Source: Nocardioides sp. S5
GTDB lineage: Bacteria; Actinomycetota; Actinomycetes; Propionibacteriales; Nocardioidaceae
Length of the DNA stretch: 64,000 nucleotides
Assembly (NCBI RefSeq): GCF_017310035.1
Contig: NZ_CP022296.1
Span: 4,650,001 to 4,714,000 of the forward strand
Direction of reading: 5' to 3'
Both the position numbers and the translations under genes were made by a program. This document shows positions 55,937-62,333 of this stretch, piece by piece; position 1 is the first letter of the stretch, and each line of letters starts with the position of its first letter. The notes under the pieces are model-generated. The model had not been told where the DNA came from, searched no databases, and worked only from the letters and a program-made list of their open reading frames with translations.

Positions 55937-56510
55937 GTTTCCTCCATCAAGCGTGTCCGGCCTGCAGACTACGAAACTTCGAGCGCGAGCGTGGTGGAAG
56001 ACGACGGACGACGGCTCCACGACCCGGGACTCGTGGTGCTCGAGAGTCGAGCAGTCAACCGGGGACTCAGCGCCCATAACTTCGTCGAACGCCTCATGGT
56101 CGTTGTTGAGGTGTCACACCTCTAGCCGACTCTCGCCCTGTGGTGACACGGTTGCTGCCCGCGTCGTGTGCTTGGAGAACCATCGGCCCCAGGAAGTGTT
56201 GGGGGTACAGGTGGGGCTCTCCGATCCGGAGGTCATCGACCCGGCGGATGTCCTTCCGCAAAGTCCCACTGCTCGTCTTCCATCCACACGCATGGGCGCT
56301 GGAACAGGGAGATGACGAAGTGCTGCGGAAGGTTGAACAGTTGCATGGGCGTCCGTTTGAAGGTCTCCACCGGGTCATCGTGCCGGAGCACGAGTTCTGC
56401 TGGGAGTGCGGTCAATGCAGAAGTGAGGAAGCGGATGGGTGTCGAAGACCCAGGTCGCGCACCGGTTCGATGCATGATGAGAGTGCAACGTTGTGGAACG
56501 TGTGTCGCAG
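55937..56510. other. 574-base lower-GC gap, no intact gene
   Basis: Between the secreted protein and dnaB. GC is visibly below the surroundings (58% in the 60 bases from 56281). The only coding-like signal is the broken minus-strand frame listed next. No insertion sequence ends or attachment sites were recognised. Confidence 0.5.
56094..56475 (-). pseudogene. Decayed ORF remnant in two frames
   Basis: The frame 56475-56233 reads protein-like from about ALPAELVLRHDDPVETFKRT through FVISLFQRPCVWMEDEQWDF before a stop. A second frame continues with DDLRIGEPHLYPQHFLGPMV and QAHDAGSNRV to 56094. The two would join with one frameshift near 56245. Both have normal amino-acid composition, unlike chance frames. 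The family is not recognised. Probably the remains of a transferred gene. Confidence 0.35.
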
Positions 56511-59045
56511 TCAGCCCTGAGCCATGTCCACGAAGCGCGAGTAGTGGCCCTGGAAGGCGACGGTGAGGTCGCGGGTCGGGCCGTTGCGGTGCTTGGCCAC
56601 GATCAGGTCGGCCTCGCCCGGGCGGGTCGACTCCTTCTCGTAGACGTCGTCGCGGTGCAGCAGGATCACCATGTCGGCGTCCTGCTCCAGCGACCCGGAC
56701 TCACGCAGGTCGCTCATCATCGGGCGCTTGTCGCCGCGCTGCTCGGGACCACGGTTGAGCTGGGAGAGCGCGATGATCGGCAGCTCGAGCTCCTTGGCGA
56801 GGAGCTTGATGTTGCGGGAGAACTCCGAGACCTCGAGCTGGCGGGACTCGACCTTCTTGCCCGAGCTCATCAGCTGCATGTAGTCGATGACGATGAGCTT
56901 GAGGTCGTGGCGCTGCTTGAGCCGGCGCGCCTTGGCCCGGATCTCCATCATCGTCATGTTGGGGCTGTCGTCGATGAACATCGGCGCCCCCGACACCTGG
57001 CCCATCTTGCGGGCCAGCTTCTCCCAGTCGTCGTCGCGCATCGTGCCGTTGCGGATGTGGTTGAGCGGCACCTTCGCCTCGGCCGAGAGCAGGCGCATCA
57101 TGATCTCCGAGCGCGTCATCTCGAGGCTGAAGAAGCAGCTGGTGAGGTTGTTGTGGATCGACGCCGCGCGGCAGAAGTCCAGAGCCAGGGTCGAGTTGTG
57201 CGTGGGGATCATCGATCGCCCGGCGAGGTAGAGGTGATCCTCGTTGTCGACCTGCACGCACCGGACGGGCACGGACTCGATGCGCTGCACGGATGTGATG
57301 TAGCGCTTGCCGATGCGGACGGTGGACGTCGGACGCTCCTCCTTGTGGAGCAGGGCCTTGCGCTCCAGCTTGAACACGTCATCGACCGTCGAGAAGTTGA
57401 GGATGTGACACGTGGAGGACTCTTCCGAGCGCCCCTTCACCCGCTTCGTCGTACGTCCGCACCGGTAGCCCAGGCTCACGACGAGCTCGTGGACGGTGTC
57501 GGCCAGCCGCTCGCTGGTCACCGCGAACTGCACGGAACCCACCCCCTTGACCACGGTGCCGTCGGTGTCGAGCAGCCCGGCGAGCAGGTCCCGGCGGGCC
57601 TCCTCGGAGGCGCGCAGGTAGACGCTTGGAACGTGCTTGTCGTTCAGCACGCCGACCGTGCGCAGGAGAGCAGTGAAGGACCCGTGGTCCTGCTGGCACG
57701 GGCTGCAGAGATAGGTCCCGTGCATGACACCGCTGCAGTCGGGGCACACGCCTGGCTCCGGAGCTGCGGACCGAGACGTCCGGATGCTGTAGAGCATGTT
57801 GCCCTGCGACGTGACGACGTAGCCGCGGCCCTCGATCCGCATCGGGATCTCGGGGGTCTCGCAGGTGATGCGGCCGCCGGCGCTGTGACCATCACCCAGC
57901 CATGCCCCGAGGACGTAGGGGTCGATCGGGAGACGGCCGTCGTGGCCCGTCAGGGCACCCGCGTTGAGCACGGCGTGGTTGGCGCGCTGCTCCGCCCCGA
58001 CTCGCACCGTGCGGGCGATCTCCTCCGTGGTCACCACGGAGGCGTGGATGCGCTGATTCTTCGACCGGTTGTAGTGGTGGTCCGCCGCCCAGCGTGACTT
58101 CCTGGCCGCGCGCGTCTCGGTCAGCCACTGGTGCTCGCCGTCGGCGACGATCACCGAGCCGTCGGAGAAGGTGACCTCGTAGCACGGTCGATCGAGCATG
58201 ACGTCGGTCGCGGCCACGACCCGGGTGGGACGACCGTCTGCGTCGTAGAGCTGGTCGCCGACCCGGACCTCGCCCATGGTGGTCCAGCCGGTCGGCGTCG
58301 GGAGGGGCGTGTCGAGCGCCAGCGCCTTCCCCATGGCAGGACGCGCCGCGACGATGATCATCTGCCCCGAGTGCAGGCCGTTGGTCAGGTCGTCGAGGTC
58401 GGCGAAGCCGGTGGGCACGCCGTAGAGGCCGGCCTCGCGGTTGCCGATCGCCTCGATCTCGTCGAGGACGCCGCTCATGATGTCGCTCAGCGGCGCGTAG
58501 TCGACGGCTGCACGCCGGTCGGTGACCTTGTAGACCTCGGCCTGGGCGTGGTCGACCACGTCGTCGATCTGGCCCTCGCCGGCGTAGCCGAGGGCGGCGA
58601 TGCGGGTGCCGGCCTCGACGAGGCGGCGCAGGATCGCCTTGTCGCGCACGATCTCGGCGTAGTAGCCGGCGTTGGCCGCGATCGGCACGTTGGCCGACAG
58701 CGTGTGGAGGTAGGGGGCGCCACCGATGCGCTGGAGCTCGCCGCGCTTGGTCAGCTCCGCAGCCACGGTGATCGGGTCGGCCGGCTCACCGCGGCCGTAG
58801 AGGTCGATGATCGCGTCGTGGATGATCTCGTGGGCGGGGCGGTAGTAGTCCACGCCCTTGATGACGTCGACGACGTCGGCGATCGCGTCCTTGGAGAGCA
58901 GCATCGAGCCGAGCACGCTCTGCTCGGCGGCGTTGTCCTGCGGGGGCGTGCGGTCGCCGGCGGAGCGCGGCGCGTCGCCGGGCTCGTAGGCCGCCGGGCC
59001 GTCGCCCCAGGCCTCGTCGGTGTCGCCCTCGAAGGTGATGCTCAC
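56511..59045 (-). CDS. dnaB: Replicative DNA helicase DnaB with intein
   Basis: 844 residues before splicing; 467 after removal of a 377-residue intein. DnaB unwinds DNA at the replication fork as a hexamer. The N-terminal domain contains PPQDNAAEQSVLGSMLLSKD and the Walker A loop reads ARPAMGK | STLALDFCRA, split exactly between Lys240 and Ser618. Walker B is LIVIDYMQLM, then ELPIIALSQLNRGPEQR and DLRESGSLEQDADMVILLHR. Because the P-loop is split, the precursor cannot hydrolyse ATP until the intein is removed. GTG 59045 has GGGGAG upstream. A cluster of DnaA-box-like sites lies upstream. Confidence 0.97.
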   Translation of the reverse strand: MSITFEGDTDEAWGDGPAAYEPGDAPRSAGDRTPPQDNAAEQSVLGSMLLSKDAIADVVDVIKGVDYYRPAHEIIHDAIIDLYGRGEPADPITVAAELTKRGELQRIGGAPYLHTLSANVPIAANAGYYAEIVRDKAILRRLVEAGTRIAALGYAGEGQIDDVVDHAQAEVYKVTDRRAAVDYAPLSDIMSGVLDEIEAIGNREAGLYGVPTGFADLDDLTNGLHSGQMIIVAARPAMGKALALDTPLPTPTGWTTMGEVRVGDQLYDADGRPTRVVAATDVMLDRPCYEVTFSDGSVIVADGEHQWLTETRAARKSRWAADHHYNRSKNQRIHASVVTTEEIARTVRVGAEQRANHAVLNAGALTGHDGRLPIDPYVLGAWLGDGHSAGGRITCETPEIPMRIEGRGYVVTSQGNMLYSIRTSRSAAPEPGVCPDCSGVMHGTYLCSPCQQDHGSFTALLRTVGVLNDKHVPSVYLRASEEARRDLLAGLLDTDGTVVKGVGSVQFAVTSERLADTVHELVVSLGYRCGRTTKRVKGRSEESSTCHILNFSTVDDVFKLERKALLHKEERPTSTVRIGKRYITSVQRIESVPVRCVQVDNEDHLYLAGRSMIPTHNSTLALDFCRAASIHNNLTSCFFSLEMTRSEIMMRLLSAEAKVPLNHIRNGTMRDDDWEKLARKMGQVSGAPMFIDDSPNMTMMEIRAKARRLKQRHDLKLIVIDYMQLMSSGKKVESRQLEVSEFSRNIKLLAKELELPIIALSQLNRGPEQRGDKRPMMSDLRESGSLEQDADMVILLHRDDVYEKESTRPGEADLIVAKHRNGPTRDLTVAFQGHYSRFVDMAQG
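57195..58325 (-). other. DnaB intein: class 3, LAGLIDADG endonuclease, Cys-rich insert
   Basis: Residues Ala241-Asn617 of the precursor. N-terminus ALALDTPLPTPTGWTTMGE starts with Ala instead of Cys or Ser. Block B is ADGEHQWLTE with Trp307; block F is VPVRCVQVDNEDHLYLAG with Cys596; the end is MIPTHN followed by Ser618, with Thr615. Trp-Cys-Thr plus a non-nucleophile first residue defines class 3 inteins, which use the block F Cys as first nucleophile. The homing endonuclease motifs are YVLGAWLGDGH (Asp385) and DLLAGLLDTDG. Between them lies CPDC...CSPC (Cys434, 437, 447, 450), a possible zinc ribbon. The insertion is in the ATP loop, a known hot spot. Confidence 0.92.
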
Positions 59046-59517: not shown

Positions 59518-61017
59518 TCAGAGCTGCAGCAGCGTGCGGACCACGACGCCGAGGCCGACCGCGCAGATACCCAGCGCGGCGCCGTACCTCAGGTAGGTGC
59601 GCACCTGGCCGCCGAGGAAGCCGCGGCGCAGGGCCAGGCCCTCGAGCCGCAGCACCAGGTCGCGGGCGAGCAGACCGACCGCGGCGAGCGCGACGGCCAT
59701 GCCGACCCCGAAGGCCAGCACCAGCACGAACCCGAACCACGGACGCCCCAGGGCGACGGCGGCCAGGAGCAGCAGCAGGGCCGAGGGGCTCGGGACGAGA
59801 CCGCCGACCAGGCCCATCACCCACACGCCCCCGCGGCCGGGCGTGGCCTCGGGCTCCACCGCGGCCGGGGCCTCGACGACCGTCGCGGTGGCGGTCGTCG
59901 TCCCGGCGGGAGCGGCCGGCGCGTGCTCGTCGTGCCCGTGCCCGTGGCCGTGCCCGTGGCCGTGTCCGTGCCCGTGCCCGTGCCCGTGCCCGTGCCCGTG
60001 CCCGTGGCCGTGGCCCCCGCCCGAGCGCAGCTGGGCCAGCAGGTAGAGCCCGAGGCCCACGATCAGCAGGCCGGTGGCGAGGGTGAGCCAGGGATAGATC
60101 CGCGCCGGCACGAACGCACTGCTGAGCGAGACCAGCAGGCCCAGCAGCAGCACCGAGCCGGTGTGCGCCACCGTCACCGCGCTGCCCACCGCGAGCGCCG
60201 AGCGGACCGAGGAGTCCCCGCGCTGGGTGAGGTAGAACGCCATGACGGTCTTCCCGTGCCCGGGCGAGAGCGCGTGCGTCGCACCCAGGGCGAGCGCCGC
60301 GAGGACGGCCAGGCCCGCGGCCAACCATCCGTTGTCACCGAGCAGGCCGGTGGCCCGCGACGACAGCCAGGAGCCGTCGGAGGCACCCGGCCCGTCGTCC
60401 CCGGTGCCGGGCAGCTCGCCCGCGGGACCGCCGGTGGCGACGACGAGCGTCGCGGAGGTGACGTCCAGCGGGGACTCGAGCAGGTCCTCGGGGTAGGACG
60501 TGAGGCGTTCGCTGGCGCTGACCGACGGGACGTCCGCGCTCGTGAGCGTCATCCGGTCACCGACCGCGGTGACCTCGCGCCAGCCCACGGAGCCCGGGGC
60601 GGTCGAGTCCTCGAAGGTGACCTCGCCGGCGCCGATGTCGGCGGCGCCGGAGTAGCGGCAGGTGATGCGGGTGACCGGCAGCCCGCCCTCGCCGTCGGAG
60701 ACCGACGCGGTCACGTCCTCCACCTCGAGGCGTACGCCGTCGCCGCCGGCCGTGACGGCCAGCCCGTCGGTGGTCGTGGCGCACTCGCGTGCGGCCAGCG
60801 CCGGCAGGTCGTCGATCGCGTCGCCGAGCTGGGCCGTCGGGATCTCGGCGAGGTCGACCACGTGATCCACCTCGACGCCGTCGGGTGAGACGAGGATGCC
60901 GGTGTAGCGGTTGACGGTGAAGTTGCCCAGCGGGTGGGCCGAGGCCGGCGCCGCGGTGACGACCAGGCACGCGAGGAGCGCGCCCAGGGCCAGCAGCACA
61001 CGTACGAGCGTCCTCAT
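59518..61017 (-). CDS. NicO-type nickel/cobalt transporter with His-Gly repeat
   Basis: 499 residues. A signal-like N-terminus (LLACLVVTAAPASAHPLGNF) precedes an external domain of about 200 residues. Then come about six helices of the NicO/RcnA family with ALGATHALSPGHGKTVMAFY (metal-binding His residues), AVTVAHTGSVLLLGLL and GLVPSPSALLLLLAAVALG. A cytoplasmic or external loop carries 14 His-Gly repeats, a metal-buffering segment. The family exports or imports Ni2+/Co2+. ATG 61017 overlaps the stop of the TPR gene by four bases, so it ends a three-gene operon with DUF4331. Confidence 0.87.
   Translation of the reverse strand: MRTLVRVLLALGALLACLVVTAAPASAHPLGNFTVNRYTGILVSPDGVEVDHVVDLAEIPTAQLGDAIDDLPALAARECATTTDGLAVTAGGDGVRLEVEDVTASVSDGEGGLPVTRITCRYSGAADIGAGEVTFEDSTAPGSVGWREVTAVGDRMTLTSADVPSVSASERLTSYPEDLLESPLDVTSATLVVATGGPAGELPGTGDDGPGASDGSWLSSRATGLLGDNGWLAAGLAVLAALALGATHALSPGHGKTVMAFYLTQRGDSSVRSALAVGSAVTVAHTGSVLLLGLLVSLSSAFVPARIYPWLTLATGLLIVGLGLYLLAQLRSGGGHGHGHGHGHGHGHGHGHGHGHGHGHGHDEHAPAAPAGTTTATATVVEAPAAVEPEATPGRGGVWVMGLVGGLVPSPSALLLLLAAVALGRPWFGFVLVLAFGVGMAVALAAVGLLARDLVLRLEGLALRRGFLGGQVRTYLRYGAALGICAVGLGVVVRTLLQL
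59932..60015. repeat. Hexanucleotide tandem repeat, 14 units
   Basis: Units GTGCCC, GTGGCC and GTGTCC alternate 14 times without interruption and encode the His-Gly run of the transporter on the minus strand. Length change by slipped pairing would add or remove His-Gly pairs in frame. Confidence 0.9.
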
Positions 61018-62333
61018 CGGCGCGGCTCCGGTCCCGGGTCCAGACCGGCCAGCACCGACTCGGCCTCCGCGCGCTGCCACGGGGACAGGCCCGGGTCGAG
61101 GTCCAGCCCGCGGCGCAGATGGGTGCGGGCGTCGGCAGTCATCCCGAGGCCGGCCTCGATCGTGCCGCGGTGGATCCAGAACCGCGCCTCGGGCGAGCCG
61201 AGCCGGGTGGCCTGCCGGGCGATCGGGAGTGCCTCGCGGTCGCGGCCGCTGCGGTGCAGCGCCCAGGCCAGGGCGTCGGCGACGTGGACGCTTCGGCGCT
61301 GGTCCCACTCCGCCTGCGCCTGGGTCAGCGCCCGCTCGGCGGACCCGTGGTCGGCCTCGAAGAGCGCGGTCTCCAGGTCGGTGCCCACGCCGCTCGCGGA
61401 GAGCAGGTCGATGGTGGTGCGGACGACCGCGAACTGCGCGTCGGCCTCGTCGGTGCGGCCCAGGTGGAGCAGGAGCTCGCCGAGCTCGGTGAGGTACTCC
61501 GGCAGCGGCTGGCGCGCGGCCACCTCCTGCCAGGTCGCGACGGCAGCCTCCAGGTCTCCCTGCGCGACCTGGAGGCGGGCGGTCGAGACGAGGGCGGGCA
61601 GGTGGTCCGGCACGGCCTCCTGCGCGACGGCGAGACGACGAGAGGCCTCGGCGAGGCGGCCCTGCTTGCGCAGGATGTCGGCGTAGAGGGTGAGCGTGTA
61701 GGCCTGGTCGGCACGCGAGCCGACCTGGGCCGTACGCCGCAGCAGCGCGCCGGCCCGGTCGAGGTCGCCGCGCAGCTCGAAGGCGTAGGAGTAGCGGGCC
61801 GAGACGGCCGTGCTGGGCTGGAGCCGGTCGGCGGTGCGCAGCGCCTGCATCTGCTCGTCGTACCTGCCGAGCTCGTTGAGGGCGTCGACGCGCACGGCGA
61901 GGGCGCCGAGGTCGCGCGGGTTGACCGCGAGCGCCTCGTCGGCGCTGGCCAGCGCGTCGGTGAAGTCGTGGCGGGCAGCGGAGATCGCGGCGCTGGCAGC
62001 CAGGGCGGTGAAGTTCTCGTCCGGCTCGAGCTCGAAGGAGCGTGCGACGGCCTCGTCGGCCTTGTCGTAGAAGGTGGCGTTGCCGGACACGCGGGCCTGC
62101 TCGACGTACGCCACGGCGAGGTTGGCCCACGAGACGTGGTCGGCCGGCACCCGGCGCAGGGTGTCCTGCAGCGCGGCGATGCTGGCCTCGAGGTCCTGGC
62201 CGGAGTCGGGGACCACGCGCGGGACGGCCGCTGCCGGCGGGGCGGTCGACGGCGACGACGTGGTGGCCACGCCGATGCCGCCCGAGACACCCAGGACGAG
62301 TCCGACGCCGATGACGATCAGGCTCCTGCGCAC
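61014..62333 (-). CDS. TPR-repeat protein, membrane-anchored or secreted
   Basis: 439 residues. A signal/anchor helix (LIVIGVGLVLGVSGGIGVAT) is followed by about ten TPR-like helical pairs, e.g. SWANLAVAYVEQARVSGNAT, DALASADEALAVNPRDLGAL and DQAYTLTLYADILRKQGRLA. TPR domains bind other proteins. GTG 62333 has AAAGGAC upstream. Between DUF4331 and a NicO transporter on one strand, with a four-base overlap to the latter, it probably scaffolds that membrane system. Confidence 0.82.
   Translation of the reverse strand: MRRSLIVIGVGLVLGVSGGIGVATTSSPSTAPPAAAVPRVVPDSGQDLEASIAALQDTLRRVPADHVSWANLAVAYVEQARVSGNATFYDKADEAVARSFELEPDENFTALAASAAISAARHDFTDALASADEALAVNPRDLGALAVRVDALNELGRYDEQMQALRTADRLQPSTAVSARYSYAFELRGDLDRAGALLRRTAQVGSRADQAYTLTLYADILRKQGRLAEASRRLAVAQEAVPDHLPALVSTARLQVAQGDLEAAVATWQEVAARQPLPEYLTELGELLLHLGRTDEADAQFAVVRTTIDLLSASGVGTDLETALFEADHGSAERALTQAQAEWDQRRSVHVADALAWALHRSGRDREALPIARQATRLGSPEARFWIHRGTIEAGLGMTADARTHLRRGLDLDPGLSPWQRAEAESVLAGLDPGPEPRR

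Follow-up and report, generated by a model that had tools for sequence, protein, structure and literature searches.

The window analyzed here, a 64,000-nucleotide stretch of the Nocardioides sp. S5 genome to whose full length all positions refer, encodes a replicative helicase DnaB interrupted by an intein. We consider it likely that this element is a mobile site-b class 3 intein carrying a swappable zinc module on its homing endonuclease. The intein belongs to the known DnaB site-b class 3 family, which includes Msm DnaBi1 and MchDnaB1, while its recurrent Cys module is apparently undescribed.

A Cys4 module within the intein endonuclease

The motifs CPDC (intein residues 194–197) and CSPC (207–210) both lie between the two LAGLIDADG motifs, exactly where a first-pass annotation of this DNA had placed them. 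That annotation regarded the Cys cluster as non-standard for such endonucleases, a view that the relatives did not bear out. We aligned 200 rows, comprising the window intein, 80 loci from one search, the protein P0001, which duplicates the window intein, and 118 of 120 listed proteins; P0010 and P0081, whose ends could not be defined by pattern, and four fragments were left out. The window intein is thus present twice and other identical inteins recur too, so that the 200 rows represent 181 distinct inteins, drawn from best hits only (the best 120 of 7989 proteins and the best 80 of 338 loci). The four Cys residues are the majority state, being present in 158 of the 181: 91 have a single module and 67 have a second Cys4 module upstream, with the pattern CxxCGxxF...TCGxxC. 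Six more keep four candidate Cys/His ligands, namely P0038, in which one Cys is shifted, and five Cys-Cys-Cys-His sequences. The others are a remnant (L054) and 16 inteins without the insert.

Four conserved Cys/His ligands arranged in pairs, as in a zinc ribbon or knuckle, are found in the 158 Cys4 relatives and, with Cys/His ligands, in six more. Cys makes up 12.0% of the insert, versus 1.7% of the remaining endonuclease sequence (in 200 rows, the insert being present in 181 of them). Given this enrichment and the residue conservation in 181/181 distinct relatives described below, the observation is not attributable to chance. Profile searches against the PDB gave weak matches to zinc-bearing proteins such as bL32, with E values of 0.18 or worse.

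The surrounding domain looks like an intact LAGLIDADG endonuclease and has the architecture of PI-SceI. In the Pfam scan of the protein, PF14528 scored above its cutoff and Hom_end below its cutoff. Two LAGLIDADG (DOD) motifs supply the acidic residues D145 and D255, and the structural model shows the PI-SceI fold. Foldseek and VIA each listed 50 rows, all of them intein, Hint or LAGLIDADG structures. The motifs, the fold of the model and the conservation support the earlier proposal of a LAGLIDADG endonuclease in the intein.

Position of the module and its counterparts in other class 3 inteins

The model places the insert after the final strand (178–182) of the first LAGLIDADG subdomain, from where it runs into the helices 208–214 and 217–224, before Lys230. 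A model of the two-module intein of N. albidus also has CRSC at a helix start, with the predicted local distance difference test score (pLDDT) falling to 64–79 over residues 211–240.

Different Cys/His clusters occupy the same endonuclease stretch in other class 3 inteins. Inteins that we call RecB-type, whose host is a PD-(D/E)XK nuclease by Pfam (two of seven scanned), were sampled from seven Nocardioides genomes, and all seven have CxxxH...C-x5-H there. The Nocardioides class 3 inteins L192 and L194–L199, whose endonuclease bears the CxxxH...C-x5-H cluster, start with Gly and sit just after the VDYK motif of the nuclease (VDYK|TG). From a wider RecB-type set, 113 of 120 were excisable, with W, C and T in all 113; 93 of these have CxxxH...C-x(3-6)-H, five have CxxxH...CxxC and 15 have neither. 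Inspection of 12 of the 15 found seven without most or all of the cluster, three overlong cuts and two with partial ligands. Among the best 80 viral relatives in the matches listed, all have W, C and T; CxRGH...CxxC is present in 17, 61 have no such cluster and two are unclassified. The 17 viral contigs are L207, L217, L229, L235, L261, L283 and 11 others. Phage and plasmid records hold relatives of the window intein, those in phage records all being less than 60% identical to it among the matches listed. From the differing clusters in the same stretch of RecB-type and viral inteins, we infer that class 3 intein endonucleases have a site where small metal modules dock recurrently.

The class 3 splicing signature and the insertion site

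The DnaB profile TIGR00665 matches residues 34–842 of the 844-residue open reading frame (ORF). The intein begins with ALALDTPLPTP and ends with IPTHN, followed by STLALDF, in which Ser618 is the +1 residue, and it cuts the Walker A loop of DnaB between GK and ST. Such an insertion between GK and S/T, together with a homologous splicing domain, defines the DnaB site-b (DnaBi1) allele. The intein limits and the W/C/T, HN and Ser residues given by the first-pass annotation proved exact, and its P-loop insertion agrees with the placement of the intein at DnaB residues 241–617. At the corresponding junction of five out of five intein-free Nocardioides congeners, the sequence reads GK|ST with zero extra bases, and 53–56 of 60 bases are identical on each side.

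Ala241, Trp307, Cys596 and Thr615 in DnaB numbering are A1, W67, C356 and T375 of the intein. Alignment with solved class 3 inteins matches the last three to Trp67, Cys118 and Thr137 of Msm DnaBi1. The intein therefore has the Trp/Cys/Thr set at blocks B, F and G and ends with THN before a nucleophile at +1 (Ser618), while position 1 holds no Cys, Ser or Thr nucleophile. Ala1, W67, C356, T375, H376 and N377 are each present in 181/181 distinct relatives, the window included. The alignment to known inteins, proposed earlier as a check, thus places the three residues correctly and finds Ala rather than Cys or Ser at position 1, in support of the class 3 assignment. We infer class 3 splicing chemistry initiated by Cys356. 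Cys48 is retained in 167 and Cys356 in all of 168 dereplicated rows of any module state, and the class 3 residues are retained by the 16 distinct relatives without the insert as well as by 12/12 mini-inteins.

Table 1. Features of the dnaB gene and its intein in the window
Feature	Position	Strand	Remarks
dnaB replicative helicase precursor, 844 aa, GTG start	56511..59045	-	Pfam DnaB N and C domains
N-extein, end ...ARPAMGK	58326..59045	-	
Class 3 intein, 377 aa, A1...THN, +1 Ser	57195..58325	-	DnaB residues 241-617
Cys48, counterpart of Msm DnaBi1 Cys48	58182..58184	-	Cys in 180/181
Trp67 (block B)	58125..58127	-	kept in 181/181 distinct relatives
LAGLIDADG homing endonuclease domain, approximate limits, intein 96-335	57321..58040	-	
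LAGLIDADG motif 1, LGAWLGDG, intein 139-146	57888..57911	-	Asp145 181/181
Endonuclease insert, intein 186-215	57681..57770	-	
Putative zinc site, Cys4 module C194-x2-C197-x9-C207-x2-C210	57696..57746	-	all four Cys in 158/181 distinct relatives
Lys230 (block D)	57636..57638	-	aligned to PI-SceI Lys301, 181/181
LAGLIDADG motif 2, LLAGLLDTDG, intein 247-256	57558..57587	-	Asp253 181/181, Asp255 178/181
Cys356 (block F), inferred initiating nucleophile	57258..57260	-	aligns with Msm Cys118; 181/181
Thr375 (block G)	57201..57203	-	kept in 181/181
C-extein, start STLALDF	56511..57194	-	

The ORF adjoining dnaB (59518–62130, reverse strand) encodes a NicO nickel-transport domain (E 4.4e-7) with a long His-Gly repeat. 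A 534-aa open frame antisense to dnaB (56493–58097, forward strand) is most likely a high-GC artefact. Elsewhere in the Nocardioides sp. S5 genome there is a second DnaB_C match (L002, 1423–2682, reverse strand; 100.8 bits, 419 aa). Several DnaB relatives of ~1220–1305 aa, P0020, P0022 and P0032 among them, have an extra PF14890 intein domain, presumably a second intein elsewhere in the protein.

Distribution, mobility and selection

The genus was sampled independently of the insert words, through 196 Nocardioides genomes, some of them incomplete, with a profile threshold of E 1e-12. The site-b allele occurs in 40 of the 196, of which 28 have endonuclease sequence and 12 have mini-inteins of 137–162 aa. 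The profile matched 14 further genomes, seven of which were examined and hold an intein in another protein, and it had no match at that threshold in the other 142. Within Nocardioides, site b is thus seen with a full intein, with a mini-intein and precisely empty. For 43 selected rows (26 full, 12 mini and five empty), an extein tree requires at least 12 changes among these three states.

Among the 28 endonuclease-bearing genomes, 18 have one module, four have two, two have variant forms and two have none, and the endonuclease is frameshifted in G107 and cut in G143. The G107 frameshift (L164) falls just past the first LAGLIDADG motif and may be an assembly error. At least one full Cys4 module was found in 22/196 genomes of the genus and in 3/396 of a phylum sample, the window included. 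In the latter, 28 genomes matched; the full-length inteins besides that of the window are L115 and L116, both with two modules, and modules are absent from degenerate forms, L118 and L121 among them. With the insert columns excluded, a tree of 168 inteins requires at least 10 changes among the states of zero, one and two modules, a count in which gain and loss are not distinguishable.

The ratio of nonsynonymous to synonymous substitution (dN/dS), estimated by the Nei-Gojobori method with Jukes-Cantor correction from all pooled pairs of nine sequences (the window and eight relatives), is ~0.19 for the endonuclease, indicating purifying selection. The N-extein value of 0.26 seems inflated by variable N-termini and was set aside. 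A recent independent acquisition in Nocardioides sp. S5 is not supported by identity to the nearest relatives, L086 and L087, which share with the window 90–94% of the intein DNA, a level near that of the upstream flank (92%), and 97–98% of the exteins, versus 52–54% of a poorly alignable downstream flank. A coupling between loss of the module and decay of the endonuclease was also considered, and no link was seen: D255 is retained in 21/22 dereplicated rows scored without Cys4 (variants and the remnant included) and in 144/146 with it.

Proposed mechanism and alternative explanations

By analogy with DnaBi1, splicing almost certainly follows a route in which Cys356 would attack the Lys-Ala junction and hand the N-extein to Ser+1, after which cyclization of Asn377 would release the intein and rebuild the Walker A loop as GKST; until then, the precursor is expected to lack ATPase activity. 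The fold, the residues and the pattern of empty, full and mini sites make it highly probable that the endonuclease drives copying of the intein by cleaving intein-free dnaB at the GK/ST codons. The four Cys residues quite probably form a small structural zinc site, with a CxxC knuckle followed by CxxC at a helix start, situated after the final strand of the first LAGLIDADG subdomain and ahead of the helices that precede the block D lysine. We lean slightly toward a role of this module in shaping or extending DNA binding by the endonuclease. Analogy supports such a role, since the accessory domains of VMA inteins modulate cleavage and HO needs both its zinc finger and zinc; a metal requirement for the putative DNA cleavage is plausible. 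Evolution could add, duplicate, exchange or remove an accessory module of this kind and leave splicing intact.

Several results weigh against this proposal. Both collections of relatives relied on query words, and one of the six search patterns lies inside the insert itself, so that module-bearing rows are favored in the counts. Zero Pfam zinc families scored above cutoff. A Cys/His cluster of this kind is absent from the majority of the viral class 3 inteins sampled, and the RecB-type inteins P0158 and P0161 retain the stretch with the ligands lost. The dN/dS of the insert is 0.36, compared with 0.19 for the rest of the endonuclease, and thus it evolves faster. Finally, the catalytic residues are mostly kept in inteins without the insert, so the module is dispensable for an intact-looking endonuclease.

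The faster evolution, the remnant and the repeated changes of module state, gains or losses alike, would also suit an insert that is a functionless leftover of past module exchange. This is nevertheless unlikely: only seven of 165 distinct inserts deviate from the four aligned Cys, and six of those seven retain four candidate ligands, whereas the other insert columns have a mean top-residue frequency of 47% (in 146 dereplicated rows preselected for Cys4, where Cys is 100% by construction). The first-pass annotation had suggested instead that the insert makes splicing sensitive to metal or oxidation. The Cys4 module would then be a sensor in the same polypeptide as the splicing domain, whose loss of metal or oxidation would reshape the intein and control splicing and DnaB activity. 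The intein family can indeed be sensitive, as splicing of DnaBi1 is inhibited by H2O2 and zinc in the accessible text of two reports (PMC6195587, PMC7360933), but DnaBi1 has no endonuclease. Moreover, the splicing signature is intact in the 16 of 181 distinct relatives and in the 12 mini-inteins that lack the insert, and Cys48 and Cys356 persist irrespective of module state. Control of splicing through the module is therefore improbable, and we rejected it as the principal explanation; among the reasons why the module matters, a connection with the control of splicing is the weaker one. Since Cys48 and the catalytic Cys of DnaBi1 are conserved in 180 and 181 of 181 relatives, H2O2 and zinc could also affect splicing of the present intein independently of the insert, with Cys48 as the disulfide partner by our reading of the accessible DnaBi1 text.

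Rubredoxin-type iron sites are also built from two CxxC pairs, and the identity of a metal is not readable from sequence. Iron, an iron-sulfur cluster or disulfides in place of structural zinc would thus be compatible with the Cys4 pattern. Zinc is a better fit to the Cys-to-His swaps that keep four candidate ligands (five sequences) and to the CxxxH...C-x-H and CxRGH...CxxC counterparts, while a cytoplasmic protein should need no disulfides. We regard these alternatives as marginally less probable still than a sensor or a leftover.

Returning to the structural zinc module, we tentatively propose that a natural docking point lies just past the final strand of the first LAGLIDADG subdomain in class 3 intein endonucleases, where interchangeable modules that bind metal and recognize DNA can attach (none, one or two Cys4; Cys3His; Cys2His2). 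Such inteins would then be natural meganuclease–zinc finger fusions that switch target choice by module swaps, with modules perhaps derived from phage HNH homing endonucleases. The profile phrog_1271 (HNH endonuclease) matched 30/51 members of A2, the two-module relatives, with a best value of 3.7e-7. However, an ORF of the Nocardioides sp. S5 genome that looks unrelated was hit by the same stretch of this profile as well (4.7e-5), so a phage HNH endonuclease as the source of the double module stays a lead.

If the Cys modules bind zinc, zinc-bearing splicing inteins occur sporadically in the bacterial dnaB of many actinobacterial genera. Homologous inteins of a single host gene differ in module number (zero, one or two), which offers both a natural experiment on how endonuclease specificity is gained or changed and cases in which evolution has joined zinc modules to a meganuclease.

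Comparison with known systems

The closest known systems are Msm DnaBi1 of M. smegmatis and MchDnaB1 of M. chimaera (PDB 6bs8 and 6rix; PMC6195587, PMC7664689). DnaBi1 shares with the Nocardioides intein the host protein, the P-loop site b and the WCT signature, its splicing residues being Trp67, Cys118 and Thr137 in the accessible text of PMC6195587, and both mycobacterial inteins have the same splicing fold, with 64% identity over the splicing domain. In contrast to the Nocardioides intein, with its endonuclease and Cys module, DnaBi1 has no endonuclease, and the solved MchDnaB1 chains of 145–146 aa are too short for one.

The whole-chain architecture, the LAGLIDADG motifs and the block D lysine are held in common with PI-SceI, the yeast VMA intein (1lws, 1vde). 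PI-SceI splices by the class 1 route, unlike the Nocardioides intein. According to the accessible part of PMC8966425, PI-SceI recognizes DNA through a region inserted into the splicing domain.

In the literature searched, in which most subscription papers lay outside coverage, we found no description of zinc modules in the LAGLIDADG endonuclease of a splicing intein. Zinc fingers are reported in other phage homing endonuclease families (PMC3943268, accessible part), and one paper, in its accessible text, names HO/WHO as the only known intein–zinc finger fusions. The HO/WHO proteins of yeasts are intein-like LAGLIDADG proteins with CxxC zinc motifs, as here; residues essential for HO cleavage also lie in its zinc finger, and zinc is required (PMC7282813, accessible part). 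In HO/WHO, however, the zinc finger is C-terminal, there are no exteins and HO is non-splicing, whereas the Nocardioides module is internal, splicing residues are present and DnaB exteins flank both sides.

A variable add-on that modulates cleavage and differs between close relatives is likewise known from the accessory domain (ACD) of the TliVMA, PhoVMA, PI-PfuI and PI-TkoII inteins, as far as the accessible text of PMC8966425 describes it. The ACD of the VMA inteins sits between the endonuclease and the C-terminal splicing part (same source), while the Nocardioides module is built on Cys residues and is located within the first LAGLIDADG subdomain.
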